Source of the DNA: a virus
Length of the DNA: 61,188 nt
Virus record (IMG/VR): IMGVR_UViG_3300021088_000012
Location: 1 to 61,188 of that record
Reading direction: 5' to 3' (one strand)
In this document: in pieces, positions 23,401 through 52,474 of the stretch
How the letters are laid out: each line of letters begins with the position of its first letter
Numbering within the stretch: the stretch's first letter is position 1
Translations under genes and position numbers: made by a program
The notes under the pieces: model-generated
What the model was told of the DNA's origin: nothing
Database searches by the model: none
The model's input: the letters and a program-made list of their open reading frames with translations, nothing else

Positions 23401-24583
23401 CTACTATCCGCTTCTTTTCGAATTCGATACGGAGGTGCCGATCAATTTTGCCGATCTATTCAATAATGCCGCAAACGGTCATATTGAGTTCATTTATAAC
23501 GGGATATCATTCTGGGGTTTCCCTATTCAGGTAACTGCAAAACCCGCCTTTAATGAATCTCAGACCTGGAAACTCCTTTGTTCACCCAAAACGAACCTGT
23601 CCGATCTGGTGAACCTGGATTGGACCGGGCTGCAAGCACTTATGCCTTTAGATATTTCCATCCCGATTATCAGCCCGATTCATTTCGTTCCCCTGGGTTA
23701 TGTTAAACCAGACGTATACAAGAACAACACGATGGACCAGGATCTTTATAGGAACCGGATACTCGCCTGGATCGATACGAGCGATTATACAGCACCCCGG
23801 CAGAATGATGAGCCGATCCCTTTACAATTTCAATCCGGGGCACTGAGCCCTGCCACCGTGCAGGTATTGAACAATTTAGGACAGGATGTGGGGGCGCCGA
23901 TCAATATCCCCAGCATTACGGACCCGGCCATCAATGTACCACAGTTGCTTTTCCAGGGTTTAATTTCGCTGAACGCTTTACCGGATGGGATTTACTATTT
24001 TCTTCTCTCCGTGGGGACGGGTCCGGCAACCGGTCAGTTTATTTCCGAAGGGATTTATATAAAGGCTAATTGGGACTATAATACCATTCGCCTGGATTAT
24101 TCGAATACTACCAATAAATTGGCCACGGTATTTACGGCAAATCCTGGATTCAATATCCGGGTTCACGGGCAGATCAACCGGTATACTCCGAAAAGCAAGT
24201 TCACAACGTTCGTGGACCAGCCGCAGGATATTGACCTGCTGAACGCGATACCTTACGATACCTGGCGGCTGGAGATCGGGCGGTCCTCAGGGATCCCGGA
24301 CTATATGATGCGCAAGATTGCCCGCATATTCGATCTGGATACCGTTTTTATCGATGGGGATCAGTATACGAGGGATGGGGAAGCTCAATGGGAAAAACAG
24401 AACTTCCCAGGGCAACCGAAGGAATATTTGAGTTTAGAGATCCGCAGGGCAAAAAACATCGATGCGATCACCCTGAATACGTCCGGACAGTTGACGAGTG
24501 ATATGGAGGGGGGTTATGTTTTGGATCCACAGGCATTTGGAGCTGGACCGACGCAACCTTTGATCGAAGTAAATGGCAGTTAA
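20456..24583 (+). CDS. Tail tip / distal tail and baseplate-hub protein (1375 aa)
   Basis: Follows the tape measure with no gap. N-terminal about 180 residues resemble a distal-tail (Dit-like) start: R-R-Y-W-L-F-F-L-Q-D and L-S-F-G-R-N-A-H-Y-W-G-I-N-R-T-F-T-I-P-L. The rest is a long beta-rich multidomain protein with repeated jelly-roll-like segments and a C-terminal domain ending in E-V-N-G-S. It probably forms the tail tip that contacts the cell surface before the fibres. No enzymatic motif seen. Confidence 0.75.
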   Translation: MGIQRRYWLFFLQDAPSQMCYYIDSMGNIQKGNVLLGDDLSLPQSPGGWDEIQLSFGRNAHYWGINRTFTIPLKFIGDGAKIIRHLFYTGRGIESPVNLVICKWDDVTGVFRLYYSGQLDLIKIEDEVAEGVKVNIMQGGILQALKAYENTVFEIPCDGSIPENIKVNCDGILLNDVFHYQILNCIVPYPGELPLPCGFLNNDGDNIGITRNNPVLEQPYTGYYQKSTNFLFSSEEAITVRIQGNITILPDWRVNNTGFYLFIATSLSQPRAGGIDHAAGLIRPYHPISTIWEPLNSQLNVIGQIQFHFDATINLAAKENLFLLFFNDFAAFPLTIIGGSFSLTFSSRYKASRVWGIRPYDLGKLIIKQMNALSSNFVQTFNYLFDSMLLQNNPNLVVTSGDALRASTDPNYFQYYNQATLNPANPNNQFYNQFASQGPVIKTTISDFFDSFNAILNAALSNQQLPGEAESLFIESKNYVMDPSFTTMTLTKIANFRISIALEYFFNWLKVGYTPQQYDEKAGKYEYNTLIQWQAPIKTLAKVLELMCKYRADSYGIEYTRYNTQGGKSSTFNQSDNSVFLLNTDFSASIADFYNAYFISGVPLASSITNTDQKLTPNQSYLPVYLDTLDGEYFTALNDFSIFMFNQPAPGTQSISVSTPTPALLNGLIGDSATINMYINGILIQSWSQLVSGVNTPFNIVYSSSRAFAKGDNIYFTVSTVRTCTVEITDFIIAIGSGYWSAETSGPINISAGSTQQTISLPNIVATMITIGGIQIPVVSSGFQYFTFLSNVHNKNFNWSFGVSVYHQGNSSETATFDVWKNGVNIGTVSFNGNSNILTWFNPPVVTGGFSLPPVNFSGNITFNLYDIVWITGSDTNINTYITNCQLLFDSTGVDAYKLLRLTYSNVSGIPNPQTAFNLEQLTPKRMLNSNSNLLSPVLFNQAPGSLKFQTSDKNQFLSTTLAGVTVTENTNVDIHDLAPPLYYPLLFEFDTEVPINFADLFNNAANGHIEFIYNGISFWGFPIQVTAKPAFNESQTWKLLCSPKTNLSDLVNLDWTGLQALMPLDISIPIISPIHFVPLGYVKPDVYKNNTMDQDLYRNRILAWIDTSDYTAPRQNDEPIPLQFQSGALSPATVQVLNNLGQDVGAPINIPSITDPAINVPQLLFQGLISLNALPDGIYYFLLSVGTGPATGQFISEGIYIKANWDYNTIRLDYSNTTNKLATVFTANPGFNIRVHGQINRYTPKSKFTTFVDQPQDIDLLNAIPYDTWRLEIGRSSGIPDYMMRKIARIFDLDTVFIDGDQYTRDGEAQWEKQNFPGQPKEYLSLEIRRAKNIDAITLNTSGQLTSDMEGGYVLDPQAFGAGPTQPLIEVNGS

Positions 24584-24596
24584 ATAACTGATTATT

Positions 24597-26084
24597 ATGA
24601 CACTTTCAATTTTTCAACAGACGAATCCAGTGGGGGCAGGTAATACCTTGGTTGCGGGTATTTATAAAGCTTCTGCCCCATCAGTGCTGATTGCTTTTTA
24701 TGAATTTCCAGGGCCTTATACCGGTGCTACCCAGTTGCATACCTTCCCTGGCCTGGCTAATGTTGTCTATAATTATGTTCTGTACGAATCTCCTGATCAC
24801 CTGGCGGATGGAACGGTCCGTAATAGTTTCAGCGTTCAACCGAATGCAAATGCCTTCAATTTCCGGGATCCTCTTTACCTGGAAGCTAATACAAGTCCTT
24901 TCTTCGCTTCAGGGACTAATTTTTATGGTCAGGATAGTTCTCTGATAGGATGGAATTGGTATCTTGAACAAGTCGCATCAGGGACCCAGCATTATGCAGA
25001 AATATGGACAAAAACAATTGCTGGAGTGCCAACCACCCAGGACGATACTACGGCTGATGGCTGGAAATTGACTCAGGTAGGGAATATCATAGCCCCTGAT
25101 GAAAGATGGGTTATTCATTTTCTTCCTCAATTGGGAGCGATATCCTCACCTGCCAGCGGAACATTTATTTCAGGAACCACCCTTTTGACAGCCAATACGA
25201 TCCTGGATGCCTCTGCGGTAGGCCAAGCCTTCATTCTACAAGGCGGGGGCGGCTATTTAAATATCACTTTGCCCGATATTAATACAGTACCGGATAATGA
25301 GCCCATTTTTTTAAATAGTAATGGAGGTTCTCATATAAATGCTGGGATTACCTGTTTCAGCGGACAGTTTTTTCAATGGTTCAATAATCAGAGCAATCTT
25401 CCGAGCACGTATGCTTCATCCATTTATTTAGGTCAAGAGGAAGACATTTTCGTTTATAGGTTCACTTTCCCTGGCGGCGCTAAAAGATGGATTGTTTGCG
25501 GAGATAAATCAGGCATGCGCATGGTTGGGGAAACTATTTATGATTATTCTCAACTTCCATTCAATACACTATTTGCGAATGGACAATATTTATCAAGAAC
25601 CAATTATGCTCGTTTATGGGCATGGGTTCAGGCTACCCCGAATATTCTGATAGCAAATAGCACATTTGACAATACAAGCATAATTCATGGAACCTCTTAC
25701 TTTATCAATCACGGTAAATTTTCCGATGGGGATGGATCGACAACCTTCAGACTTCCTATTTTGTGGCAATATGGATATCAACGCGCTAAGTCTGGAGTAG
25801 TTGGATCTCATTCTAATAATGGTTATCCTGGCGATCTGGATGCTCAATCTGTTGGAACGCATACCCAGCCGACACATGCCTTCGGAGCGATTACAGGAGC
25901 TGGCCATAACTGGTTTTTATCGAATTCGTCAGGAGGGAGATATTCTGCCGGTGGTGGTGATACTTTTGGTGGAAAAATGGATGCAATAGATACCGAGATG
26001 AAAACCGGTTATCCAGATAATACGAATATTGATGGGGAGAATCTTCCCACTTCGACAGGAATTTACGCATTAATAAGATGTTAA
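24597..26084 (+). CDS. Tail fibre with phage tail collar domain (495 aa)
   Basis: The C-terminal half carries the collar-type fold: a start of repeat M-V-G-E-T-I-Y-D-Y, F-S-D-G-D-G-S-T-T-F-R-L-P (about 375-387), H-T-Q-P-T-H-A-F-G, and the end N-L-P-T-S-T-G-I-Y-A-L-I-R-C, where Cys is terminal. The N-terminal half is beta-rich and glycine-poor. Likely a receptor-binding fibre. Unlike its downstream neighbours it has no signal peptide. Confidence 0.8.
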   Translation: MTLSIFQQTNPVGAGNTLVAGIYKASAPSVLIAFYEFPGPYTGATQLHTFPGLANVVYNYVLYESPDHLADGTVRNSFSVQPNANAFNFRDPLYLEANTSPFFASGTNFYGQDSSLIGWNWYLEQVASGTQHYAEIWTKTIAGVPTTQDDTTADGWKLTQVGNIIAPDERWVIHFLPQLGAISSPASGTFISGTTLLTANTILDASAVGQAFILQGGGGYLNITLPDINTVPDNEPIFLNSNGGSHINAGITCFSGQFFQWFNNQSNLPSTYASSIYLGQEEDIFVYRFTFPGGAKRWIVCGDKSGMRMVGETIYDYSQLPFNTLFANGQYLSRTNYARLWAWVQATPNILIANSTFDNTSIIHGTSYFINHGKFSDGDGSTTFRLPILWQYGYQRAKSGVVGSHSNNGYPGDLDAQSVGTHTQPTHAFGAITGAGHNWFLSNSSGGRYSAGGGDTFGGKMDAIDTEMKTGYPDNTNIDGENLPTSTGIYALIRC

Positions 26085-26095
26085 TTTTGTAGAAC

Positions 26096-29000
26096 ATGAA
26101 AAAAATATTTCTCTTCGCCCTGATTATTTATAGTTTTTCAGCTTTCGCGCAATATCCATCGCCGGTATTTACGAAACCAAATAATTCTTATGGAACTATT
26201 TTAAATGGATTTTCTCCGGATAGTGTATTTTACTTTCCAACAGGATGCGGAGTGCCGACGGATACTACTTTCCTGCATGCTCAACAAAATGGAGGTAAAG
26301 CGCAGAAATTGAGAAAGTGGGCGATTTATGGTGATACTTGTGGGCATAATTCTTATCTATGGGAACCGACTTTACAAATATGGTTCCTGATAAAAACAAA
26401 AGGAGTTGATTCAATTTTTAGAACGCCTGGGATTGATTCTATTTGTTATATATTAAATGGAAGGCAGCATTGCTTTTTGGATAGCGCTGGAGGTGGTGGC
26501 GGCGGAATTGATTCAACACTTCTTACAGGGCTTTGGATAAAAAGAAATTCTGTCGGAACAATCATTACAATCTATGCCGATAGCGCGGCAATGGCCTCTT
26601 ATTTTCTTCGCCGGGCGGACAGTGGCACTAATTATGTAACAGCTGCCCAATTAGGAAAAAAATTGGATACCTCCGTTCACTTCAATATCTACGTGCGAAG
26701 ATTGGGTGCCCCTGGAGATACGCTCCTCACAGCTTCAGACAGTACCTTACACGTAGCAGCCCAGCGAGACAGCATTGATGCGCATCATGTCATAAATCCA
26801 GATCTATCCTGGACGTGGTATGTGCAGGCGCATGATAGCACTTCCGCCAATGCCTTGGAGACCGAGTATGGGGCTGATACTGCGCGACTGGCGGTAAATG
26901 CAGCTTTAGCCAATAAAGTAACAAATGGAGGCGCTTCCAAAAGCTTTACTACGGGACTACTTTCAAGCCGGCCAGCAGCATCGAACTGTCAGTGCTATTA
27001 TGGCTCAACAACAGATTCGGTTCTCTATTACGATAATGGCGCATGGATTCCTATGGGAAGAGCAGGATCGGGGAGTAGCCTACTATTGAACAATCTTCTT
27101 TCTATCAATGGAGGCATAGGCCAATTGGGAGGCACATCAGCGAAGCCTAATACAACGCTTGGCTTTCATAATACCGATACTCTTACATACGACAGTCTAA
27201 AGAACCTCATTATCAGGGGCATGCCCTTATTGACCTCCTCTGCCGGGGCCTATGTAGTAGTGAGAGACAGCATCACCGGAAAATTATACGATATACCGGC
27301 ACAGCAGACTGACACTACCGGAGTAGCAGCAGGCATAGCCGCCGGAAATCTCATGATCGCTGTTTGGAATGGGGTGACGAATAAAGTTGTTTTTCAGGCA
27401 CTTCCATTAGGGCCATTCATTGTGAATAATAACTGGGTGGTGGCCAGTAATGTTTTAGATAGCGTGTGTATAAATTGCAAAGTCGCCCAAGCCCCTCTTA
27501 CGGATAGCGGAACTTTTGCTTTGAACGGTTTTCTGGGAGGAACGAATACCGTTACCACTAACCATGACTCTACGCAGACTCGTTATATAGTTGTGAACTA
27601 CCAGGGATCTGCTAAAATAGCTAATCAGTTAGATGTCACCTTAAATCAAGGGGCCACAACTGATACTACCTCTATGAATGTTATCGATATTAATTTACAT
27701 GATAACAATCAATCAAAACATGCTTCCATAAATGGCATTAATTTCAATATCCGAAAACAAACTGTCGGCGGCACTTTGGAAAATTTCACCGGAATTAATA
27801 TATCGTTGGTTCCTTCAGCCGGGGATTCTTTGGGAGGACTAAATTCTATTTTTCATCCGAATATTTTCAACCCATCCGGGTATGTTGGCACGATCGCTGC
27901 ATTCGATGCGGGGTTCCCGGCAGGTAGTTACAGCAACATAAACAAGATCATCGGTCTAAACTTCGGTAGTGGAGGAACAGCAACAGCCCAAAATGGAATC
28001 ATAGGAGTAAATGTTGGTGTTAGTGCAGCAGCTAACAATTATGGGATTAATTCTTTTGGGACTGCTAACAATCTTATGAATGGCCCATTGATCTTGAATA
28101 ATGTATTAGGGTCGTCTGGAACGCCAAAATTATTAGTGCATGCAAGCGATAGCAGTGCGAAGGAGATAAAACTAGGTTCTGGATTTTCTGTGTCTAATGA
28201 TACCTTGAATGTAACAGGAGGGGGAGGCGGGTCTACACTTCCATTAAAAGCTATTGGTTTTGGGAATGCCTCAAATACCTTGACAGGGGATACTACTAAA
28301 ATAAAATTCGATTCATCTGGGCAAGGGCATACTTATTTATACGTTAATAATGGCCCTGTAGCAACCGGCGACATTTCTGGTTTTGGCAATAGCATTACGT
28401 TTGGATTAAATGCCAACCCTCAAAATGTTAATGACTGGATTGCGCAATTAGCGTACAACTTAGGAACAACTCCAAATAATCTAGGACTAAGCTCTTCTAC
28501 TCTTGAAAAACAAACACCCCTAAACCCATTTGGGGCAGCGAATGCGATAGATAGAGTAGCCGGAACTATTCCCACAAAAGATGCTACTCATCGATTATTG
28601 GTAATCATGTATGGTATTAATGATGTACGGTATAATGGAGCTAACTACACGACTACTAATTTTGCGCTGGATTATGATACTGTGCTTACTTCCATTTACG
28701 CCAAAGGATGGGATAGCACAACTGTTATAATGACGAGCACTACCTATGTGGATTCAGCAAGCGCTTTCGTCTCTTTTTCCGGGAATCCTATCGCCACTTA
28801 TGCAAGGCAAGCAAGTTTTGATTCGACGATTCAGGCAAGGGCGGCATTTCATCATGTTAAATATGTTGACGTAAAAACGCCAATGATATTGGCAGGTAAA
28901 AAGGATGTATTAAGTTCTGATGGACTTCATCCTTCGAATGCTGGCCATAGGATTATTGCATTGGCGATAGCAAAAGCATTGGATTCCGCTAGAATTGATA

Positions 29001-30916
29001 CAAATTATAGATTTATAGTCAATGGAAACGCTAAGTTTGATGGCATCATACGATATAGAAATATGCCAGTCTTGGCAGAAAGTTCAATGCCTTTACATTT
29101 TGACAGCGTAGGGAATTTAGGTTATTCCATAAATGAAAACATATTTGGCAAAGCTTTGATTGGTGGCGCAATCAATAGTGATACGGCCAATTTAATAGTC
29201 AGTGGACAAATTCTGGCAGACGGATTGAAATTAGCTGCAAATGTTAGTTACCCAAACCCTACTACAGGTAATGGATTGTGGTTTAATAGATTTCCGACAA
29301 CGCAAGATTACCGCATAAATAACGAAGATTGGAGCACCTTAACACCACATGGGATTGCTATTAATGATGGGGGAGGGCCAGTAACTGTAGGAGGGACAAC
29401 ATTTGACCCAAATGGATCTAAATTGTTTGTACCCACCACTGGGATCAATACCGGGAACATGTATATAACAGGATTCAATCCGCCTTCCGTAGGTACAGGA
29501 ATGGAAATTGGGTGGAATGGCACTAACGGGTATATATATTGCTCTCAAATAGGAGTGGCGGCTAAACCTCTTATTTTAGGATACGGGGGATCTCCTACTT
29601 TAATAGGTGGAACCGGAGATGATGGCGTAAATGGATTTCAGGTTAACAGAACTCTATCCAGATTTTATGGAACGGTTGGTATTAATACAAATGCGGTGGC
29701 ACAAGCCCATCTTAAATTAGCGGCGGGTACAACACTTATTGCCCCATTAAAATTTGATACAACAGGGAATGTTTTGACTACCGTACCAAAGCCGTTCAAT
29801 CTGGAAATGTTAGCTGATAGTCTTTATTTCACTGGTTATAGTGGAACAAGATATAAGGTTTATCCTCAATCTTCGTCAGGTGTAACAGCAGTGGGGGCAT
29901 TCTCGGGAAGTTCTCAAACGAATGGAGCCTCTATATCTGGAAGCACTATTACTTTTGGGCCGGCAGATGCGACTAATCCGGGCATGGTAACGACAGGAGC
30001 ACAAACATTTGCCGGGGTAAAGACTCATAGCAATACTATAATCTCATCAGGCGGTTTTTATAACAGCGTTCCAGGCGCTCAGTTTGCAGGACAAGCTTCT
30101 ACAATCAACAATGCTATAACTGCTGCCAGCGGAACGGTAAGCAATTTCTCGAATTATGCTTTCCTTGCGCCGACTGTAACAAGCACGAACACTGGAGTGG
30201 TCTATAATAATCCAGCAACGTTGAGAATAAACAATGCTCCAACAATGGGAACAAATTCATCATCGACTGGATTTCTTTATGCACTCGATGTGGCAGCAGG
30301 CTTATCCCATTTCGGGTTAGGATCTTCCTCTATATCTGCGATATTCGACGGATCAGTTTCTCTCGGCACGAGTGGAAATGGTTCTTATTTCGTGAATGTA
30401 GGGGCATCCACTAGCAGCATAACGGCAATGAATCTATCTCCGGGCGTCAACCCTTCCTCAGCAACAGTTTCGGGAGATTTATGGTACAATGGCACCAATC
30501 TTTATTTTGGAGATGGGGGTGGTGTTAAAAGAGATTTATTAGCTCCTGCTACGGCACTTAAAGCGGAGGCATATATTTCTTCGCAGACTGCTACCAATAA
30601 CAATTTTACAACTTACGCCACGCCAGCATCGGACGGCATGTATGAAATAGGGGGTTACGTGAACGTCAGTTCTGTAACAGTTGACGTGTTGCAATTGCAA
30701 GTCAGCTATACAGATGAAACAAATACCTCAAGAACGGTGTCTTTTGTTAATCAGGGGGCTACCTCTGCGAATATAACAGCCACCGGACCCAGTCAATTCC
30801 CCCCAATGCGTATACGAGTAAAGGCGTCAACAACTATTAATATCAGTGCAGTGTTAACAACCGGAACCGGAAGCATCAACTATAATGCTGAAGGAGCTAT
30901 TACCTTGATAAAATGA
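26096..30916 (+). CDS. Very large fibre-like protein with Sec signal peptide and SGNH hydrolase domain (1606 aa)
   Basis: N terminus is a clean signal peptide (M-K-K-I-F-L-F-A-L, cleavage after F-A, Gln at +1). Next come Ser/Asp/Gly-rich beta repeats with poly-Gly linkers (about 130 and 705). An SGNH/GDSL esterase domain lies at about 755-965: block I G-F-G-N-S-I with Ser766, block III G-I-N-D with Asn842, block V D-G-L-H with Asp942 and His945. The C-terminal about 130 residues (from A-P-A-T-A-L-K-A-E-A-Y) form a trimeric-fibre-like end. Probably de-acetylates or cleaves a surface glycan ester. A signal peptide is unexpected for a virion fibre, so it may be secreted from the infected cell. 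Confidence 0.8.
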   Translation: MKKIFLFALIIYSFSAFAQYPSPVFTKPNNSYGTILNGFSPDSVFYFPTGCGVPTDTTFLHAQQNGGKAQKLRKWAIYGDTCGHNSYLWEPTLQIWFLIKTKGVDSIFRTPGIDSICYILNGRQHCFLDSAGGGGGGIDSTLLTGLWIKRNSVGTIITIYADSAAMASYFLRRADSGTNYVTAAQLGKKLDTSVHFNIYVRRLGAPGDTLLTASDSTLHVAAQRDSIDAHHVINPDLSWTWYVQAHDSTSANALETEYGADTARLAVNAALANKVTNGGASKSFTTGLLSSRPAASNCQCYYGSTTDSVLYYDNGAWIPMGRAGSGSSLLLNNLLSINGGIGQLGGTSAKPNTTLGFHNTDTLTYDSLKNLIIRGMPLLTSSAGAYVVVRDSITGKLYDIPAQQTDTTGVAAGIAAGNLMIAVWNGVTNKVVFQALPLGPFIVNNNWVVASNVLDSVCINCKVAQAPLTDSGTFALNGFLGGTNTVTTNHDSTQTRYIVVNYQGSAKIANQLDVTLNQGATTDTTSMNVIDINLHDNNQSKHASINGINFNIRKQTVGGTLENFTGINISLVPSAGDSLGGLNSIFHPNIFNPSGYVGTIAAFDAGFPAGSYSNINKIIGLNFGSGGTATAQNGIIGVNVGVSAAANNYGINSFGTANNLMNGPLILNNVLGSSGTPKLLVHASDSSAKEIKLGSGFSVSNDTLNVTGGGGGSTLPLKAIGFGNASNTLTGDTTKIKFDSSGQGHTYLYVNNGPVATGDISGFGNSITFGLNANPQNVNDWIAQLAYNLGTTPNNLGLSSSTLEKQTPLNPFGAANAIDRVAGTIPTKDATHRLLVIMYGINDVRYNGANYTTTNFALDYDTVLTSIYAKGWDSTTVIMTSTTYVDSASAFVSFSGNPIATYARQASFDSTIQARAAFHHVKYVDVKTPMILAGKKDVLSSDGLHPSNAGHRIIALAIAKALDSARIDTNYRFIVNGNAKFDGIIRYRNMPVLAESSMPLHFDSVGNLGYSINENIFGKALIGGAINSDTANLIVSGQILADGLKLAANVSYPNPTTGNGLWFNRFPTTQDYRINNEDWSTLTPHGIAINDGGGPVTVGGTTFDPNGSKLFVPTTGINTGNMYITGFNPPSVGTGMEIGWNGTNGYIYCSQIGVAAKPLILGYGGSPTLIGGTGDDGVNGFQVNRTLSRFYGTVGINTNAVAQAHLKLAAGTTLIAPLKFDTTGNVLTTVPKPFNLEMLADSLYFTGYSGTRYKVYPQSSSGVTAVGAFSGSSQTNGASISGSTITFGPADATNPGMVTTGAQTFAGVKTHSNTIISSGGFYNSVPGAQFAGQASTINNAITAASGTVSNFSNYAFLAPTVTSTNTGVVYNNPATLRINNAPTMGTNSSSTGFLYALDVAAGLSHFGLGSSSISAIFDGSVSLGTSGNGSYFVNVGASTSSITAMNLSPGVNPSSATVSGDLWYNGTNLYFGDGGGVKRDLLAPATALKAEAYISSQTATNNNFTTYATPASDGMYEIGGYVNVSSVTVDVLQLQVSYTDETNTSRTVSFVNQGATSANITATGPSQFPPMRIRVKASTTINISAVLTTGTGSINYNAEGAITLIK

Positions 30917-32874
30917 GACTATTGATCCTCATACTACTGTTTCCTCTGTTCACCTCTGGTGCGGATTATTACTTCGCCAATGCTGGTAATGATGCAAACC
31001 CAGGGACTCAACTATCCCCCAAGCAGCACTTATCAGCAGCAGATGTATTATTGCAGACTGCCGGAACCAGGATCTTTCTGAATCGCGGAGATGTTTTTAT
31101 AGGTAATCTTCATTTCAATGCCAATTCTGGAAGTCTATTAGCCTACGGATCAGGGGCCAATCCTATCATAACTGGTTTCATTCAACTAACTTCCTGGACT
31201 AGCCGGGGAAGCAATCTCTACCAGGCTTATTGCCCCACCTGCCAGGCTATTACCAGCGTAGTTCAGTTCAATAACTACGATCAGCCGATGGGACGATTCC
31301 CGGATACTACGGCTATCAATGGCGGCTACCTTACCTATACAAGTCCTACCAGCACATCTATCGTTGCCGATGTAACCGATCCCACTACCAATTGGGCAGG
31401 TGCAACTATCGTAGTGCGGGTGAATAACTTTTCCATGGACCCGGCAACAATAACAAGCGAATCGGGAGGGGTTATTAATTTCACTCCTGCATTGGTAGGT
31501 GTTCCTATTACAGGTTATGGATATTTTATTCAGAATGATATTCGTACGCTTTCCACAGTCGGGGAATGGTTCTGGAAAAGTTCTGTTGATAGTTTGATAA
31601 TGGACTTCGCTGGCACTACCCCTTCAGCGAATCAGGTCTCCGTATCTTCGGGCGATACATTAATAAGCATAGGAGCCAGTAATATCAAGATCGATGGAGT
31701 GGACCTGAAAGGTTGCAATAAGTTTCTAGTTGCTTTCACCTCCGCCAGTTCGAATGATACTATCCGGAACGATACTTTATCTTATGCAGGTATAGATGCT
31801 ATCAACATTCCGAATGCTTCAGCTACTATCGTAAAGGATTGTTCGTTCGATCATATAAACTTCTTGAACATCCATAACAATGGAATTACTGCGGTTTATC
31901 CCGCCGAAATAGACAGTACTCAAATCACTGATAATTCATTCACCAATATGGCCATTATCCCCGGTGCCGGCCTGGGAGGGAATGCTTACTATGTTGCTAT
32001 TACTCACTATGGAAATAGAGATTCTATCTTAAGAAATACCTTCTACAATATAGGAGGGGTGTGCTGCCAAATTTTTGGAGGAGATAACAACTGTTACCGA
32101 TACAATTATTTTCATCATTTCAACACAATCTTATGTGATGCAGGAGCAATTTATGCTTCTGTGCATGATGGTTTACCAAATTACATCTTAGACAATATTT
32201 GTATTGACGGAGTGGGGCAACATTCCGGAACAACTCTACCAGCAAACACATATAGCACTGGTATTTATCTGGACAATGGAGCGCAGAATTGGGATGTTGA
32301 ACGAAACACAGCCGCCTATTGCAGCTATAACGGTCTCTTTGACCACTTCACCAAAAATTGCATAGAACTGAATAACACCTGTTTCAAAAATACGGGCTCG
32401 CAGTTCTATTTCCAGGAGGACAACTCTGGGACTATTATGCGCGGAAATATCTTTAAGTATAACAAATTAATCAGCGGGGACAGCTCCTCGTTAATTATTG
32501 CCTATTACATAGCAAGCAATAACGATCTAAACCTAATTGGCACACTGGATTCAAATATCCTTACCCGGCCAGTACGGAAAACGACACCTTTTAAAAATAA
32601 TGGAGGTGGTGGATCGGTTTTCAATTTACAGAAATGGCAGAGCCTAACAGGCCAGGATGCCCACTCAAAAGACTTACCAACAGCTATTAATAATGACTCC
32701 CAGATGCTACTATTCTATAACGCAACGATGTTGCCATCAGTTGTGAGCTTGCCTCAAGGATACTGTGACGCGACTGGACTGCCCTATGCTCCTGGCAATT
32801 TCACGTTACAGCCGTTCCAGAGTCTGGTGCTGATTCAATTACCCATCTATTCATATTTTGGTCTAAGCAAATGA
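30913..32874 (+). CDS. Secreted right-handed beta-helix protein, candidate depolymerase (653 aa)
   Basis: Signal peptide (L-L-I-L-I-L-L-F-P-L-F-T-S-G, cleaved before A-D-Y-Y-F). Mature start Y-Y-F-A-N-A-G-N-D-A-N-P-G-T is the classic entry of pectate-lyase-like parallel beta-helices, with T-S-x-S-x-x-D-T-I-R-N-x-T ladder-type rungs from about 210 to 530 (N-N-G-I, D-N-S-F, R-N-T-F, N-C-Y-R-Y-N). Such folds in phage bind or cleave polysaccharides. Overlaps both neighbours by ATGA. Catalytic residues cannot be assigned from sequence alone. Confidence 0.75.
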   Translation: MRLLILILLFPLFTSGADYYFANAGNDANPGTQLSPKQHLSAADVLLQTAGTRIFLNRGDVFIGNLHFNANSGSLLAYGSGANPIITGFIQLTSWTSRGSNLYQAYCPTCQAITSVVQFNNYDQPMGRFPDTTAINGGYLTYTSPTSTSIVADVTDPTTNWAGATIVVRVNNFSMDPATITSESGGVINFTPALVGVPITGYGYFIQNDIRTLSTVGEWFWKSSVDSLIMDFAGTTPSANQVSVSSGDTLISIGASNIKIDGVDLKGCNKFLVAFTSASSNDTIRNDTLSYAGIDAINIPNASATIVKDCSFDHINFLNIHNNGITAVYPAEIDSTQITDNSFTNMAIIPGAGLGGNAYYVAITHYGNRDSILRNTFYNIGGVCCQIFGGDNNCYRYNYFHHFNTILCDAGAIYASVHDGLPNYILDNICIDGVGQHSGTTLPANTYSTGIYLDNGAQNWDVERNTAAYCSYNGLFDHFTKNCIELNNTCFKNTGSQFYFQEDNSGTIMRGNIFKYNKLISGDSSSLIIAYYIASNNDLNLIGTLDSNILTRPVRKTTPFKNNGGGGSVFNLQKWQSLTGQDAHSKDLPTAINNDSQMLLFYNATMLPSVVSLPQGYCDATGLPYAPGNFTLQPFQSLVLIQLPIYSYFGLSK

Positions 32875-34592
32875 AAAAACTTCTTACCATATTATTTTTT
32901 ATTCCTTTGTTCGCTCATGCGCAAACATATCAATGGACGGATATCATTTACGATGGTTGCGGGGAGTATGCCCATGCGAACATTGCGGCTTCTACCTTAT
33001 TCCTTTATGGAATTTCTGGCAATCCGGCCTTAATGGGCACCAATAATACAGGAACGCCGGGTATACCAGGGCATGCAATAACAAGCCCAACGAATTTACA
33101 GTTCCTGTCTACGTGGGGGGCCCTTCATGGTTATTACGCCATCGATAATACTGTCAATCACTATGCCTGGGTGATTGGTGATAATTCGGACGGACAGTAT
33201 GGCGATGGCACTTCGACAGCAACGTTGGTGGCAAATAAAATTGCTACGGATAGTGCCGGAAATGCCTTTACCGGGCTCGTGGAAATCGCTTTCTTTTTCA
33301 CCGGCAATGCTCACAATGGCGCCCTGGGACTTAAGTCAGACGGGACGGTCTGGGTATGGGGAAACCTTACGGATAACATGCGCGGCAATGGTACCGGTGG
33401 ATCCACATTTGTGAAGCCGGTCCAGGTTATAATTCCAGGGGGGCGTACCGCAATTCAGGTACTTGCAGGATACATAGCTCTGGTATTATGTTCGGATGGC
33501 ACGGTCTGGTCGTGGGGCAGTGGCGCAGGAACTTACCTGAGTCTTGGCTATGCGGGCTCAGGCTCACAATGGGCGACCATCCGTCAGGTGACGGGGCTAA
33601 CAGGGATCACCCAAATAGCCGGGGGGCTGCATTGGTCCTACGGGTATAATGCGACCACAAATAAACTCTATCGCTGGGGCTATGCGGGCAATTATATCGG
33701 GAAATCGGGCGGAGGCACTTCCGGGGCCGGTGTAGGAGTCGGTATCCCGGAAGAGGCGACTGAATTGGAGAGTGCCTTAGGTATGCCGGCCTTATCCCTG
33801 AAACAAATCGTAACGAACTATGATGCCACCGCCTGCATAATGTCAGATGGCACCCTCCATGCCTGGGGGGATGCTGTTGAAGGTTGCGTAGGAAATGGAG
33901 TGGAAGAGAATTGGGCTACCTACTCAACGCCCTATGCCAATAATCTGGGAACGCTGGGACAATTGTTGCAGATCACCCCAGTCCAGTTGGGCTACAAAAC
34001 TGATTGGAAGGCCGTGTATGGGGGTGGGCCATTTGTGTGCTATTTTGTCGCAAGGGATGCGGCTGGGAACGAATATGTGTGGGGCCGCAATAAGGGATTG
34101 GTGATTGCTCCTTTCGGGCTGGCCAGCTCCAACCTGGTAGGTACCTACCCGAACTCAACGGATATTTTGGAGCCGACTAAAATAAATCCTTACGCCGCAA
34201 CGAAGGTCTGGGCCGTGACGAGCCCCTGGTGCCTGTCAAATCCCGCGGCGACATATTGCTCTGATTTTACACATGGGGCTTATGGGGCGCTGACCGTCAA
34301 CGCCGGTTCCAATCAATCGGTAACTACCAATGTTGCTTTATTATCTGGAACCATTTCTGATACGGCTATTTACCGGCATTGGGATATTGTATCTGGCCCC
34401 GGGTCTCCTCATATTCGTTCGGCTACAGATAGCAGCTCAACGGTTTTTAACCTGTCGCCGGGATCAACGACGATCAGATATATGGGGACAAACAACGGCT
34501 TTGCGACTTACTCGAATACTGTAACCATTACCTATATACCAACAAATTGTAATTGCACCATTCAATCACATGTTCCAATAAAACTTCATTAA
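32871..34592 (+). CDS. Secreted RCC1-like beta-propeller with PKD/Ig-like domain (573 aa)
   Basis: Signal peptide ends F-A-H-A, cleaved before Gln. Residues about 60-440 contain RCC1-type blades: G-L-K-S-D-G-T-V-W-V-W-G, L-C-S-D-G-T-V-W-S-W-G, I-M-S-D-G-T-L-H-A-W-G and A-A-G-N-E-Y-V-W-G. From about 465 a PKD/Ig-like domain follows (N-A-G-S-N-Q-S-V-T ... S-P-G-S-T-T-I-R-Y). RCC1 propellers are interaction scaffolds; a phage-encoded secreted one is unusual. Possibly binds a surface ligand. Confidence 0.75.
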   Translation: MKKLLTILFFIPLFAHAQTYQWTDIIYDGCGEYAHANIAASTLFLYGISGNPALMGTNNTGTPGIPGHAITSPTNLQFLSTWGALHGYYAIDNTVNHYAWVIGDNSDGQYGDGTSTATLVANKIATDSAGNAFTGLVEIAFFFTGNAHNGALGLKSDGTVWVWGNLTDNMRGNGTGGSTFVKPVQVIIPGGRTAIQVLAGYIALVLCSDGTVWSWGSGAGTYLSLGYAGSGSQWATIRQVTGLTGITQIAGGLHWSYGYNATTNKLYRWGYAGNYIGKSGGGTSGAGVGVGIPEEATELESALGMPALSLKQIVTNYDATACIMSDGTLHAWGDAVEGCVGNGVEENWATYSTPYANNLGTLGQLLQITPVQLGYKTDWKAVYGGGPFVCYFVARDAAGNEYVWGRNKGLVIAPFGLASSNLVGTYPNSTDILEPTKINPYAATKVWAVTSPWCLSNPAATYCSDFTHGAYGALTVNAGSNQSVTTNVALLSGTISDTAIYRHWDIVSGPGSPHIRSATDSSSTVFNLSPGSTTIRYMGTNNGFATYSNTVTITYIPTNCNCTIQSHVPIKLH

Positions 34593-34595
34593 TAT

Positions 34596-34817
34596 ATGAG
34601 ACTTATCATCTTCTTGTTGCTTCTCAGCCTTGGCGCCCGGGCGCAGGTAAAGCCGAACTATAAGGACTCGGCCTCCAAATACTACCGGATCTCTGTGGCT
34701 TATATGGATTCCTCTATTACCGCTCTGAGGGAGAAGAACATGCTTCACTACAAGTTTTACCGGAGGAAGCAGGAAGAGGCCTGGCGCAAATCATCTTTTT
34801 ATGTCGAAAAACAATAA
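34596..34817 (+). CDS. Small secreted helical protein (73 aa)
   Basis: Signal peptide (I-I-F-L-L-L-L-S-L-G-A-R-A, then Gln at +1) followed by about 55 charged, helical residues with many Lys, Arg and Tyr. Between the RCC1-like and hydrolase genes. No family recognised; periplasmic or extracellular. Confidence 0.65.
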   Translation: MRLIIFLLLLSLGARAQVKPNYKDSASKYYRISVAYMDSSITALREKNMLHYKFYRRKQEEAWRKSSFYVEKQ

Positions 34818-34820
34818 TTT

Positions 34821-35882
34821 ATGAAAAAGATCTTATTAGCGGTTTCGTTTTTTATTTGCGTGGCTTGTTCCGGGCAAAATATTTATTCTGGAAAAATTGC
34901 CGGTCTCAATGCCATATTCTACACATCACCGGGTTTGGATACCACACAACCGGTGAATTTATTGCTCTTTACCCCGGGCGCCGGGGAGCAGGGGACGGAT
35001 ATAACGAAATTGCTGATCCACGGCCCTTTTCAATTCCTGAAGGCAACGGTTGATATTAAGGTTCCTCTCCTGGTGGTCGCGGTCCAGAATATCAATGCCA
35101 ATCCGCAGCCTCTTGAATATCAGTCATATATTGATGGAATCAGGAAACTATACAAGATCAATAAGATCGTGCTGACGGGGCTTTCACGGGGGGGCCAGAA
35201 TGCGGAATGGTTCGCCAATTATTCGGAAGCTCACCTGGCGGAGATAGCAGGGATGATAGTATTCAGCTCCCAGGGAACGGTATCGGATTACCCTGGTGTT
35301 CCTGGGACGCTCAATCCTTCTCTTTACCTGAAGTATAATATTCCGATCTGGCGAGGGGTAGGGGACCAGGATTTCACCTGGCCTATTAACCAGGGATTGA
35401 ATAATGCTCTTTCTTCCGCCGCTCCTAAGCTGGCCATATGGACGACCTGGCCCGGCGCCGGGCATGGCGATCCAGTCTGGGTACAGGGCTATGAACCCTT
35501 TCCTACGCCTACCAATCCGATTTACGTCACCATGAAAATGTCCATCTATCAATGGGCGTCAAGTATCATGGGAAGTCCGCCGGCCCCTCCTGTGGTAATC
35601 ACCTATAAGAGCGCTGCGGAAAGTCAAGTTTTCACGCGCAATTGTGTCTGCGGGACCCCGGTTCCTGTGATCTATACTGTGCCGGCCGGGAAATATACAA
35701 GCACTGTCAGCCAGGCGGCTGCTGATCAGTTCGCCATGTCTGACTTATCGGCTAATGGACAGGCATATGCGAACGCGAATGGCATATGTATCCCGATCCT
35801 GGTGTATATATTGAAACATTATTCCGATGGAACGATAATAAAAATTAATCCTGCAGGTGATTCTGTAGTAATTAAGCCATGA
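34821..35882 (+). CDS. Secreted alpha/beta hydrolase with DUF5977-like C-terminal domain (353 aa)
   Basis: Signal peptide, with C-S-G before Gln +1 (a lipoprotein reading of the V-A-C is possible but poor). Serine-hydrolase core: nucleophile elbow G-L-S-R-G-G (Ser122), acid in G-D-Q-D-F (Asp182 or Asp184), and G-A-G-H-G (His215), as in poly-ester/carboxyl-esterase-type hydrolases. From about 265, S-A-A-E-S-Q-V-F-T-R-N-C and Y-T-V-P-A-G-K-Y-T-S-T match the DUF5977 domain of Bacteroidota secreted proteins. Likely an extracellular esterase. Confidence 0.8.
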   Translation: MKKILLAVSFFICVACSGQNIYSGKIAGLNAIFYTSPGLDTTQPVNLLLFTPGAGEQGTDITKLLIHGPFQFLKATVDIKVPLLVVAVQNINANPQPLEYQSYIDGIRKLYKINKIVLTGLSRGGQNAEWFANYSEAHLAEIAGMIVFSSQGTVSDYPGVPGTLNPSLYLKYNIPIWRGVGDQDFTWPINQGLNNALSSAAPKLAIWTTWPGAGHGDPVWVQGYEPFPTPTNPIYVTMKMSIYQWASSIMGSPPAPPVVITYKSAAESQVFTRNCVCGTPVPVIYTVPAGKYTSTVSQAAADQFAMSDLSANGQAYANANGICIPILVYILKHYSDGTIIKINPAGDSVVIKP

Positions 35883-36196
35883 AAAATAAAGTACACCATT
35901 ATGATATTTTAGAGGAAATGATCCGGGCCAGAGATCGGGAACATTTAATTCAGGCGACAGAAATAGAGCGTAGAATGCAAGGATTGAATGGGGAAGGTGA
36001 CAGAATTCAGGAAATTTTAAAAGAGACTATTCCGCGGGAAGTTTTTGACCGCACGATTGATACTTTGCGTACACGAATTCAGGCCGTGGAGACAGCCATT
36101 ATAAAACAAGAAGGAAGACATCAGCTTTTACAATATATTCCATGGGCATTAACAGCTATTTCGTTGATATTTATGTATCTTATGTACAAAAAATAA
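35879..36196 (+). CDS. Coiled-coil protein with C-terminal membrane anchor (105 aa)
   Basis: Long N-terminal coiled coil (R-A-R-D-R-E ... I-Q-A-V-E-T-A-I), then one membrane span (I-P-W-A-L-T-A-I-S-L-I-F-M-Y-L-M-Y) and a short basic end. This XhlA-like layout is typical of lysis-cassette accessory proteins. Starts inside the previous stop region (ATGA). Confidence 0.65.
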   Translation: MKNKVHHYDILEEMIRARDREHLIQATEIERRMQGLNGEGDRIQEILKETIPREVFDRTIDTLRTRIQAVETAIIKQEGRHQLLQYIPWALTAISLIFMYLMYKK

Positions 36197-36232
36197 TGTG
36201 CTTAATTCACATTGACTGCAATACTCTACCAT

Positions 36233-36574
36233 ATGAATCAAGAAGAAAGCAACGAAAGAGAAGCCCGGGAGGAGCGATATAGGGGATCTCAGGAAGACAT
36301 TATGATCATTCGAAAAGAATTGAATAAACTCACAGGAGAAGTGGGGAAACTGGTTACGGCCTTTAAGGGAAATGACCTGGGAACTGAAGGAATGGTAGCA
36401 CAAGTACGGCAAGTTATTGAAGAACAAGCAAAAATGAAGCGACGACTAGATGAAATTGAACGAATCGCAAAAATTAATCAAAAATATCTTTTTGCCTTCA
36501 TTGGGACATTGGGGGTAGTATTGGGCTCCATTGCCAAAACAGTTATTGATCATTTATTTACAAAAAAACCATAA
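36233..36574 (+). CDS. Second coiled-coil/membrane protein, XhlA-like (113 aa)
   Basis: Start taken at the ATG 36233 (M-N-Q-E-E-S-N) rather than the TTG at 36212. Charged coiled coil up to about residue 85, then one span (Y-L-F-A-F-I-G-T-L-G-V-V-L-G) and a Lys tail. Paralogous layout to the preceding gene; together with the following holin candidate this is a lysis module. Confidence 0.65.
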   Translation: MNQEESNEREAREERYRGSQEDIMIIRKELNKLTGEVGKLVTAFKGNDLGTEGMVAQVRQVIEEQAKMKRRLDEIERIAKINQKYLFAFIGTLGVVLGSIAKTVIDHLFTKKP

Positions 36575-36576
36575 AT

Positions 36577-36975
36577 ATGCAACCCTCCAATCCTTTAATT
36601 AATTTCCTGCGGGAGAGTCTGAACCGGCTGAAGACGAAAAAACCGAAATATTTCATTTGGTGGCAATATATCACCGGGGCTATGGCACTGATCACCTGGC
36701 TGCCTACTCTGCTGACAAACTTGGGAGTCACCCTGCCGGCAGCGGCTACAAGTATTATGGTGAAACTGGTGGCCGCATGCACCACTGGTGTGTTATTCAC
36801 AAGCCAACTCACCACCTCAAGCCCCGTCCAGGCGGTCACCAAGGATGGCGCCGTGCTGAAGCAGACAGATGCGCAGGTTTTGCCTTTCACCGCTGCTAAT
36901 GAGGTTAAACGGGCGCAAGATGCAAGAGTACCCAATACATCCACTACTTTGGCCGAAGTAAAGGCAATCAAGTGA
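36577..36975 (+). CDS. Holin-like membrane protein (132 aa)
   Basis: Basic N terminus, two hydrophobic segments (about residues 26-50, I-T-G-A-M-A-L-I-T-W-L-P-T-L-L, and 56-82) and a hydrophilic C-terminal tail. Class II holin topology, just upstream of the endolysin. It would form the membrane lesion that releases or triggers the lysin. Confidence 0.65.
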   Translation: MQPSNPLINFLRESLNRLKTKKPKYFIWWQYITGAMALITWLPTLLTNLGVTLPAAATSIMVKLVAACTTGVLFTSQLTTSSPVQAVTKDGAVLKQTDAQVLPFTAANEVKRAQDARVPNTSTTLAEVKAIK

Positions 36976-37064
36976 CACGAAATGACATCAAATTGATTCT
37001 TTTATACCTCGCGGCCTTTATTGTATTTTTGGCGGTCATGATCCTCATTTCACAATTTAAATAA
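36972..37064 (+). CDS. Single-span peptide, GTG start (30 aa)
   Basis: GTG overlaps the stop of the holin candidate (GTGA). Short polar N terminus, then one hydrophobic segment (L-I-L-L-Y-L-A-A-F-I-V-F-L-A-V-M-I-L-I). May be a holin regulator (antiholin-like) by position. Confidence 0.5.
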   Translation: MTRNDIKLILLYLAAFIVFLAVMILISQFK

Positions 37065-37069
37065 TCAAC

Positions 37070-37558
37070 ATGAAAATTCTCTATTTGCTCCTCGTTTTAT
37101 CGATGGCGGTTTCGACGGCTTTTTCTCAGAGCATTTTTGAACCACTCCCAACGCATGGATTCGCCCCTCCCAACAAGCCATCCATTCGAGCACGGGCAAC
37201 CGTTATTACCGCAGTGGGTGATTCCATTTTTAGCGGATTCCGAATAGGTGGTATTTCTGCCCTGGTTGCCATCGGAACGAATAGTACTTCAGCTATTTAT
37301 GCCGGGTTCACGGCCGGATATGAGCATGACACAAAGAAAGTATCAACCGGCAGATGGACCACCGATTATGCCATTGAGGGGGGCATATATGGCGGGGCCG
37401 GTAAGCAGGCCCCAACGAACTGGCAAACCACTGGAGCTATCGGCTTATCGGTAGTTCTGCTAAATAAGCATCTGGTATTAGGTATACTGTATGATTTTGT
37501 AATAAGAAAGCCACTGGCCGCTACGGGTCCGAATGGGTACTTAACGCCAACAAATTAA
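37070..37558 (+). CDS. Outer-membrane-like secreted protein (162 aa)
   Basis: Signal peptide with cleavage before Gln (T-A-F-S then Q-S-I-F). The mature part has alternating hydrophobic strands with Gly/Ala and terminal aromatic residues (I-G-G-I-S-A-L-V-A-I-G, A-I-Y-A-G-F-T-A-G-Y), as in small beta-barrels. In the lysis block it could act on the outer membrane at lysis or alter the surface against superinfection. Inference only. Confidence 0.65.
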   Translation: MKILYLLLVLSMAVSTAFSQSIFEPLPTHGFAPPNKPSIRARATVITAVGDSIFSGFRIGGISALVAIGTNSTSAIYAGFTAGYEHDTKKVSTGRWTTDYAIEGGIYGGAGKQAPTNWQTTGAIGLSVVLLNKHLVLGILYDFVIRKPLAATGPNGYLTPTN

Positions 37559-37656
37559 TGACCCCCAGAAGACACATATTCATTATTCTATTTTGGTCCA
37601 TTATCCTTTCTATTGCATTGATATTCATATTAATATTAGTTATTCCAAAGTTATGA
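37558..37656 (+). CDS. Single-span membrane peptide (32 aa)
   Basis: ATG one base inside the previous stop (TAATG) and stop overlapping the endolysin start (ATGA). Basic N terminus (P-R-R-H) and an almost pure Ile/Leu span. Coupling to endolysin suggests a lysis accessory role. Confidence 0.55.
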   Translation: MTPRRHIFIILFWSIILSIALIFILILVIPKL

Positions 37657-38099
37657 GCTCACAACAGGAACTTCTGAAGAAATATGGTCCCCCCGCCGGC
37701 GGATATATAGCCAAATATTGTGTTACCTGGGCAGTGCAGCAGGCCTTCCCCTGGTTCCCGGTGAGCCACTTCCTGATAAATAGCGACTTCATGCGGGTTC
37801 TATTTAAGGCGTTTACCGAACTGCAGGCAGCGGGCTTGCATACCGAAATAAATACCTTTGATGGGTGCTATAATGACCGGGATGTAAGAGGGAGCACTTC
37901 TACTTCCCTTCATGCCTGGGCAGCAGCTATTGACCTGAATGCGGCATCCAATGGTATGATTGTCGGTCCAACGCCGGAACAGCGGAAAGGATCTTGGTCT
38001 GATGGCTTTATAAGTACTATGAAGACGGCCGGGGTATTTTACGGGGGTGATTTCATTCATAGGGCCGACCCGATGCATTGGGCACTTCTGGATGGCTGA
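37653..38099 (+). CDS. Endolysin, M15-family L-Ala-D-Glu/D-Ala-D-Ala peptidase (148 aa)
   Basis: Cuts peptide cross-bridges of peptidoglycan at lysis. Start at 37653, coupled to the upstream peptide; the open frame further upstream reads that peptide in another frame. Zinc ligands typical of M15: S-L-H-A-W-A-A-A-I-D (His87, Asp94) and D-P-M-H-W (His142). The R-D-V-R-G-S-T-S-T segment precedes the first His as in phage VanY-like lysins. No signal peptide, so export depends on the holin. Confidence 0.9.
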   Translation: MSSQQELLKKYGPPAGGYIAKYCVTWAVQQAFPWFPVSHFLINSDFMRVLFKAFTELQAAGLHTEINTFDGCYNDRDVRGSTSTSLHAWAAAIDLNAASNGMIVGPTPEQRKGSWSDGFISTMKTAGVFYGGDFIHRADPMHWALLDG

Positions 38100-51624: not shown

Positions 51625-52079
51625 AACGAAATAGCCGTGGATACACCGTAAATGTAGCCGACAACCGGATCATCACTGATGAGGACCGGGTTCATCAGCA
51701 GGTGGTAAAATGGCTGCAGCTAGTTCACAAAGATGTTATGTTCCACTCTGATGCCGCCGGCGAGCTAATGACGGAATCCATGCGAATCCGGCAATCTAAG
51801 GTAAATATGCCAGGAATCAGCTTTCCGGATCTCCAGATCCTGGAGGCCAGGGGGGGGTACTTTGGGATGCTGGTAGAGATAAAAAGGGAGGACGAAACTA
51901 TTTTTAATGGGGCCGGCATGTTCAAAAACGATCATTTAAAGCGCCAGGGGCTCACCCTTATGATGCTGAAGGATCGAAATTACAAGGCCATATTCTCAAA
52001 GGGCTTGGACAACATAATCCGGGAGATCGGTCTTTATTTAGCGATGCCTCCAACTAAATTCAAAAAACATAAGCTTTGA
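51621..52079 (+). CDS. VRR-NUC-like nuclease (152 aa)
   Basis: Start at 51621. H-Q-Q-V-V-K-W-L, then F-H-S-D-A-A-G, G-I-S-F-P-D-L-Q-I and L-V-E-I-K-R-E: the Q..W, P-D and E-x-K elements of VRR-NUC (PD-(D/E)xK superfamily), as in phage Holliday-junction-resolvase-like nucleases. Small stand-alone form. Role in replication or recombination intermediates is likely. Confidence 0.82.
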   Translation: MKRNSRGYTVNVADNRIITDEDRVHQQVVKWLQLVHKDVMFHSDAAGELMTESMRIRQSKVNMPGISFPDLQILEARGGYFGMLVEIKREDETIFNGAGMFKNDHLKRQGLTLMMLKDRNYKAIFSKGLDNIIREIGLYLAMPPTKFKKHKL

Positions 52080-52192
52080 AATATTTACTCATCATTTTTC
52101 TCTTTGCGTCCTGTGGACCTTCCAGGGATGCCTCCGGGCATTACTGGAAAGCAAAACAGGTATGGCGAAGGATAACCGCAAAAAAAGACACC

Positions 52193-52474
52193 ATGAACAC
52201 CCCACAACACTACGAGCCGGAAGATCTTGAATTTATCAAAAAGAACGCCGAAACGATGACCGTTCCCGAAATAGCCTTTGAATTGGGCTTGGGGAAAACG
52301 GTAATCTACAATATCGGAAATCGCTATGGGTTGACTTTCAAGGGCGCCCAACCGAAGGCAAAGCCGAAAAAGTACATGAAACACACCTCCTTTGTTCCGG
52401 ATGCGGAGAAGCCTAAAATAGTTCACGTTAAAGGAGAATATAGTAATCATTCCCCTTGGGGATTTGCTTCTTAA
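52193..52474 (+). CDS. Helix-turn-helix protein (93 aa), possibly with an upstream lipoprotein extension from 52076
   Basis: From ATG 52193: N-A-E-T-M-T-V-P-E-I-A-F-E-L-G-L-G-K-T-V-I-Y-N-I-G is a clear helix-turn-helix, followed by a Lys/Pro-rich tail, probably a DNA-binding regulator. The same frame is open back to a TTG at 52076 (overlapping the nuclease stop), and that stretch encodes a lipoprotein signal (L-F-A-S-C). Either two overlapping starts in one gene, or a small lipoprotein gene fused in frame. Confidence 0.65.
   Translation: MNTPQHYEPEDLEFIKKNAETMTVPEIAFELGLGKTVIYNIGNRYGLTFKGAQPKAKPKKYMKHTSFVPDAEKPKIVHVKGEYSNHSPWGFAS

Follow-up and report, generated by a model that had tools for sequence, protein, structure and literature searches.

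Assembly of tailed phages is, in the textbook account, a cytoplasmic process. In three phages of Cellulophaga, proteins that begin with a signal peptide are annotated as virion components by MS/MS (phi10:1 gp091-094, phi19:1 gp101-104, and phi18:3 gp085-087), labels that presumably derive from Holmfeldt et al. 2013. Phages of Porphyromonas gingivalis (proposed Nixviridae) carry signal-peptide genes that obey the Bacteroidetes Q-rule (Gln at position +1 after cleavage) and were interpreted as genes that might alter the outer membrane of the host (PMC10367356); lyases with signal peptides were noted in phages Ingeline and Nekkels, with a tail location assumed and the compatibility of the two not discussed (PMC8776804); and signal peptides were reported in two rumen Bacteroides phages (PMC5723332). 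A search that covered few subscription papers found no publication joining signal peptides with presence in the virion.

Here, we analyze an entire IMG/VR virus record of 61188 bases (IMGVR_UViG_3300021088_000012, hereafter the window), in which an initial annotation had described six Sec signal-peptide genes in the tail and lysis block (26096-37558), five of them following the Q-rule, and had read them as a phage-encoded secretion program. We consider it somewhat more probable than not that 26096, and probably 30913 and 32871, encode tail fibers or tailspikes that would be exported by Sec, cut, and attached to phage particles at or after lysis.

Methods

Signal peptides were called in the 77 ORFs of the window with a hand-made, rule-based score, and genes scored as lacking one were rechecked for hidden signal peptides upstream. 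Relatives were sought with the distal tail protein of the window; this protein had no match among genome contigs, for which the alignment of the collar protein was used in its place. The same 9-base tandem repeat (GCGRTTGCA type, ~20 copies) occurs at both contig ends (12-184 and 61006-61185), which points to a probably circular or terminally redundant genome whose assembly broke inside one array.

Signal peptides of the tail and lysis block

The block and its flanking genes comprise the following features (a slash marks the predicted cleavage site):

20456-24583, + strand: distal tail protein, 1375 aa, no signal peptide; anchor for finding relatives
24597-26084, + strand: collar or short-tail-fiber protein, 495 aa, no signal peptide; PHROG tail fiber (1.7e-8), sub-threshold Pfam Collar, aligned in 10 genomes
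26096-30916, + strand: candidate long tail fiber or tailspike with signal peptide (MKKIFLFALIIYSFSAFA/Q), 1606 aa; PHROG tail fiber, weak (1e-5), SGNH/GDSL (1.9e-17) at aa 763-953
26096-26149, + strand: predicted fiber signal peptide (rule-based), 18 codons, Gln at +1
26150-26455, + strand: mature fiber head domain, with cysteines C51 and C82
30913-32874, + strand: beta-helix protein with signal peptide, 653 aa, depolymerase-like; Pfam Beta_helix (6e-7)
32871-34592, + strand: RCC1-like propeller with signal peptide (AHA/Q), 573 aa; Pfam RCC1-like (1e-21), sub-threshold PKD
34596-34817, + strand: small signal-peptide protein (ARA/Q), 73 aa, possibly a lysis or envelope factor; homologue at L013:19820-20053
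34821-35882, + strand: putative alpha/beta hydrolase with signal peptide; C-terminal DUF5977 (5e-23)
35879-36975, + strand: three small putative membrane proteins (35879, 36212, and 36577), from hydrophobic segments in the sequence
37070-37558, + strand: glycine-rich protein with signal peptide (AFS/Q), 162 aa, outer-membrane-like by sequence pattern
37593-38099, + strand: endolysin (Peptidase_M15_4), no signal peptide; Pfam 7e-9, PHROG endolysin 1.6e-8

All six signal-peptide genes of the initial annotation were recovered (26096, 30913, 32871, 34596, 34821, and 37070), and they are the only strict calls among the 77 ORFs, lying within a single 9-gene run (hypergeometric P = 3.5e-7). A basic n-region, a hydrophobic core, and small residues at -3/-1 coincide, under the rule-based score, in these six ORFs and nowhere else in the window. 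The Gln at +1 that had been assigned to all but 30913 is clear in four of the six (26096, AFA/Q, along with 32871, 34596, and 37070), the signal peptide of 30913 ending in TSGA/D with Asp at +1, whereas in 34821 the site is ambiguous: ACS/GQ scores best, VACSG/Q would place a Cys at -3, and CVA-C is reminiscent of a weak lipobox, although CVAC is off the usual consensus and SPase I sites lie close by. In Bacteroidetes, the Q-value averages 71% (PMC5837995), with which these counts are consistent. A single further lipobox was called in the window, in a likely lipoprotein encoded far from the tail block (52076-52474, MKYLLIIFLFAS/C).

The starts of 30913, 32871, and 35879 overlap the preceding stop by 4 bp (ATGA), and those of 26096, 34596, and 34821 lie 3-11 nt past it. 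The next in-frame Met is residue 166 in 26096, 126 in 30913, 55 in 32871, 37 in 34596, and 145 in 34821; in 37070, a Met at residue 12 falls within its own signal peptide. With the exception of 37070, the signal-peptide genes form a tightly packed late run that opens with tail proteins, and this packing, together with the distance to the next Met, argues that their starts are not artifacts; wrong start codons were accordingly dropped as an explanation. Chance hydrophobic N-termini were rejected on two controls: 997 internal Met residues taken as starts yielded 7 signal-peptide calls, none with Gln at +1, and shuffling of the first 45 residues gave a pass rate of 1-5% (0.3-1.8% with Gln).

Among the folds proposed in the initial annotation, SGNH, beta-helix, and RCC1 were borne out by the matches listed above. 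The alpha/beta hydrolase call for 34821 was not borne out to the same degree: the protein has a GLSRGG motif, which is kept in its homologue in contig L082, and a sub-threshold DUF1749 match (E = 0.25), whereas Pfam recognizes DUF5977 only and a PDB sequence search gave no match. No family match was found for 37070 or for 35879, 36212, and 36577, the last of which is holin-like and resembles L004:20919-21326 by eye. AlphaFold models of 37070 (pLDDT 36, built from two sequences) and of the 26096 head domain (pLDDT 51) were too poor to use.

Working signal peptides on proteins with enzymatic and adhesive domains are what one would expect if the exported proteins worked apart from the virion, with capsule, outer membrane, or neighboring cells as targets, before or at lysis. 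Type IX export of the signal-peptide proteins of the window was dropped, as no type IX C-terminal sorting domain was among the NCBIfam matches at E <= 0.1; as Sec delivers only to the periplasm, no route across the outer membrane ahead of lysis is apparent.

A signal-peptide fiber in related phages

The distal tail protein matches 10 viral contigs at 34-71% identity and the annotated phage Pan5 at 28%. No direct homologue emerged when viral contigs were scanned with 34821 or with the N-terminal 168 aa of 26096, and tblastn of 26096 and the collar protein against INPHARED gave no match. The gene that follows the collar begins with a Gln+1 signal peptide in the window and in all eight relatives in which it is readable (L004, L005, L006 (Pan5), L011, L013, L014, L015, and L016; that of L015, missed by the rule owing to an Asn in the core, was read by eye), and several relatives have further signal-peptide genes downstream of it. 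The mature heads align over the pattern Q-IF--PN---G---R--PDSTLYFPTGCG-P ... DTCGH--Y--D----W, with the two head cysteines invariant in 8 sequences; the heads of L014 and L006 have diverged and are devoid of the Cys pair. Behind the same head stand different bodies, namely, GDSL in the window, a BNR sialidase-like domain in L005, and sequences with no Pfam match in L004, L011, L015, and L016.

Where the mature heads of two sequences are 39-85% identical, 1-7 of their 18 signal-peptide letters agree. The properties of the signal peptide and the Gln at +1 are thus kept while the letters are lost, which is the pattern of a signal peptide in use and points to selection, so that export of the signal-peptide proteins by Sec and SPase I is well supported by sequence comparison. 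Conservation of the signal peptides in related phages, which the initial annotation had proposed to check, is observed at the fiber position. The location of 26096 behind the collar and tail-tip genes, and its conserved head with an exchangeable body, are those of a tail fiber or tailspike. The usual fiber is cytoplasmic and without an export signal; the Sec signal peptide conserved among the relatives of 26096 accordingly marks a variant of the class rather than an ordinary member.

The fiber signal peptides often have a long n-region (L005, L011, L016, and L057, with long ones also in L004 and L006), and several of the long ones contain an FRD[KRN]YLA-like stretch before the core that recalls the extended signal peptides of large surface proteins. 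Although recorded as infecting Pseudanabaena, Pan5 (ON968456) has tail and collar genes that cluster with those of Chitinophagaceae phages and prophages; its two fiber-position genes have Q-rule signal peptides, the second encoding a polysaccharide lyase, and a Bacteroidota bacterium present in the culture may be its actual host.

Signal-peptide proteins recorded in Cellulophaga virions

The eleven MS/MS-labelled proteins in the fiber position of the Cellulophaga phages, which are analogues of 26096 by position (tblastn of 26096 found no match among phages), all begin with a signal peptide, ten of them with Gln at +1. Across phi10:1, phi19:1, and phi18:3, the virion label is attached to 11 of 12 fiber-block signal-peptide proteins and to none of 6 signal-peptide proteins encoded elsewhere (Fisher P = 4e-4; P = 0.009 when only the three least TM-like non-fiber proteins are counted), the labels being GenBank notes that give neither stoichiometry nor cleavage state; the window phage itself is known from sequence only. 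The argument that virion proteins need no signal peptide, and that the proteins are hence secreted effectors, fails for the fiber class in the face of these eleven proteins. Action outside the virion would predict neither the presence of fiber-position proteins in virion preparations from which other signal-peptide proteins of the same phages are missing, nor signal-peptide heads that behave as exchangeable fiber heads; phi10:1 gp095, which has a signal peptide and no MS label, fits it better.

Exported fibers might instead adhere to virions only once both are in the lysate, bound by their receptor- or glycan-binding domains or carried on membrane vesicles. The GenBank notes, being without stoichiometry, would be compatible with such co-purification, and exported adhesins may bind debris, but other exported phage proteins are unlabelled, the labels are confined to the structural module in the Cellulophaga records read, and the enzyme bodies are common to ordinary virion spikes, so that we regard co-purification as very unlikely.

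Over its pectate-lyase body (aa 117-777), phi10:1 gp093 shares 44-49% identity with phi14:2 gp097 and phi4:1 gp052, both MS-annotated virion proteins without a signal peptide, and the signal peptide and head of gp093 (aa 1-118) are reused on other bodies; phage Nekkels also has signal-peptide heads in common with phi10:1. No signal peptide was called on the tail proteins examined in crAss001, phi14:2, phi4:1, phi40:1, phi18:1, B124-14 (Bacteroides), and FCL-2 (Flavobacterium). A universal feature of Bacteroidota phages is thus refuted (by crAss001, phi14:2, phi18:1, B124-14, and FCL-2), and virion fibers do not generally need a signal peptide (the same phages and phi4:1), which is a point against the export-and-attachment reading. 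Signal-peptide fibers are lineage-specific, even among phages of Cellulophaga baltica. In the comparison with phage lambda, only Lom, S, Rz, and Bor were called.

Near a glycosyl hydrolase gene of phi18:3, an overlapping pair of small membrane or signal-peptide genes (gp094/gp095, L050:18357-18909) may encode spanin-like partners, analogous to 34596; gp095 has a Q-rule signal peptide when read from an earlier start than the annotated one.

Changes of signal-peptide state at Chitinophagaceae collar loci

The collar alignment detects prophage-like loci in Chitinophaga varians, Flavihumibacter petaseus, and Cnuella takakiae. Across 396 genomes of the Chitinophagaceae, the family to which C. varians belongs, it detects loci in 22. 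One of these loci (L059) has the head type of the window, and a member of the Chitinophagaceae is thus the probable host of the window phage. A stretch of ~100 collar residues (about 87-202) has a further match in another tail-module gene, located 11-18 kb upstream (G402-G405 and G003), suggesting a domain common to two tail proteins.

At 13 of the 22 Chitinophagaceae loci with a readable next gene, the gene after the collar begins with a Gln+1 signal peptide, and on the collar tree the signal-peptide state changes at least 5 times. A tail N-terminal mini-domain directly follows the signal peptide in L070, L074, L077, and L079, and the same mini-domain forms the start of the protein, with no signal peptide, in L064, L068, L072, L073, L075, and L078; the two sets cross-match by HMM (5.5e-4 and 8.4e-7) and by hhalign (E = 4e-7). 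Together with the exchange of body and head in gp093, this indicates that the signal peptide is a module added to a fiber head, and not a sign that the protein is something other than a fiber.

The repeated changes of state, and the fact that homologous heads work without a signal peptide, would also suit fibers captured from secreted host adhesins, in which the signal is an unused leftover, the proteins stay in the cytoplasm, and assembly is normal. A leftover signal would not be expected to keep its properties and its Gln at +1 in all readable relatives through near-complete divergence of its letters, and strong hydrophobic signal peptides are generally hard to keep out of Sec; this explanation is, in our view, as improbable as co-purification. 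Homologues lacking a signal peptide, which the initial annotation had treated as evidence against its proposal, do exist, in the pectate-lyase body of phi14:2 and phi4:1, in the prophage mini-domain, and in the L082 hydrolase. At the fiber position, the signal peptide is kept in 8/8 readable relatives.

The other signal-peptide genes

Homologues of 30913 with signal peptides occur in L011 and L013, with a similar signal-peptide beta-helix gene in L083. The RCC1-like protein 32871 has homologues in L013, with a signal peptide, and in L082/L083, where a signal peptide is readable from an ATA start; the latter pair was at one stage taken to be without a signal peptide, a call withdrawn once the upstream frame was read. 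The apparent start of the L083 gene (17860-18003) is an ATA codon that overlaps the preceding stop (ATAA), and gene calling limited to ATG/GTG/TTG drops its signal peptide. The L013 homologue of 34596 is a 77-aa protein with a Gln+1 signal peptide (E = 4e-7), and the homologue of 34821 (L082:1819-2619, E = 1.8e-68) has none.

No collar relative was found in viral contig L082/L083. Its gene set comprises signal-peptide fiber-like genes, a signal-peptide beta-helix gene, RCC1, hydrolase, small membrane proteins, a signal-peptide homologue of 37070, and then a gene at the place of the endolysin, arranged much as in the window; the cassette appears to be exchanged among phages whose tail genes differ. 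The mature part of 37070 is 81% identical to its L082 homologue, with 5 of 19 signal-peptide residues the same, and the retention of this signal peptide in an otherwise different phage favors a role outside the virion, whereas the hydrolase homologue without a signal peptide weighs against one. On balance, the Sec export implied by a secretion program is well supported, an extracellular role before lysis is doubtful, and we consider the program as a whole unlikely. The signal-peptide block is a mixed set, not all of it fibers, in which 37070, and perhaps 34596, may be the better candidates for true envelope proteins and remain candidates for a function of the kind first proposed.

Discussion

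In the export-and-attachment reading, fiber precursors would pass SecYEG during late expression and be cut by SPase I, the new N-terminal Gln cyclizing to pyroglutamate. The fibers would fold in the periplasm, where the conserved Cys pair of the head could form a disulfide, while virions without the signal-peptide fibers would be assembled in the cytoplasm. Holin and endolysin would then open the cell, and fiberless virions would take up fibers through the head domain; 37070 and 34596 may stay in the envelope. The order, with export before attachment, is one that we infer. Attachment after lysis is physically reasonable, given that P22 tailspikes and T4 tail fibers can be added to completed particles in vitro.

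More tentatively, and with somewhat less than even confidence, we propose that several lineages of tailed Bacteroidota phages finish their virions outside the cytoplasm, with fibers exported by Sec, cut under the Q-rule, cyclized and oxidized in the periplasm, and attached to fiberless particles at or after lysis; exported copies could also clear capsule or block receptors before release. If this is true, some virion components mature in a compartment other than the cytoplasm and acquire disulfides and pyroglutamate, as surface proteins of the host do. Annotation and expression of the receptor-binding proteins of Bacteroidota phages would be affected, the true N-terminus being Gln, and the mistaking of such proteins for secreted proteins of the host would be explained.

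Among known systems, the fibers of Cellulophaga phages phi10:1 and phi19:1 (Assiduviridae) and phi18:3 (Pachyviridae) resemble those of the window in being long modular proteins at the distal end of the tail block, in which a signal peptide, mostly with Gln at +1, precedes a head module and an enzyme body that can be exchanged; their head sequences differ from that of 26096, and the MS evidence is theirs alone. The P. gingivalis phages share several Sec signal-peptide genes that follow the Q-rule; the function of theirs is unassigned, whereas those of the window are mostly fiber or enzyme genes coupled to the tail operon. Comparable in Ingeline and Nekkels are pectin or alginate lyase domains within larger proteins that have signal peptides. 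Lom of phage lambda and other phage envelope proteins are Sec-exported, as the signal-peptide proteins of the window would be, and are the nearest analogue for 37070, but differ from 26096 in that they are not virion parts and have neither a fiber head nor coupling to the tail operon. P22 tailspikes and T4 fibers have no signal peptide and fold in the cytoplasm, unlike 26096, but share with the assembly proposed here that they can be added to finished particles outside cells.
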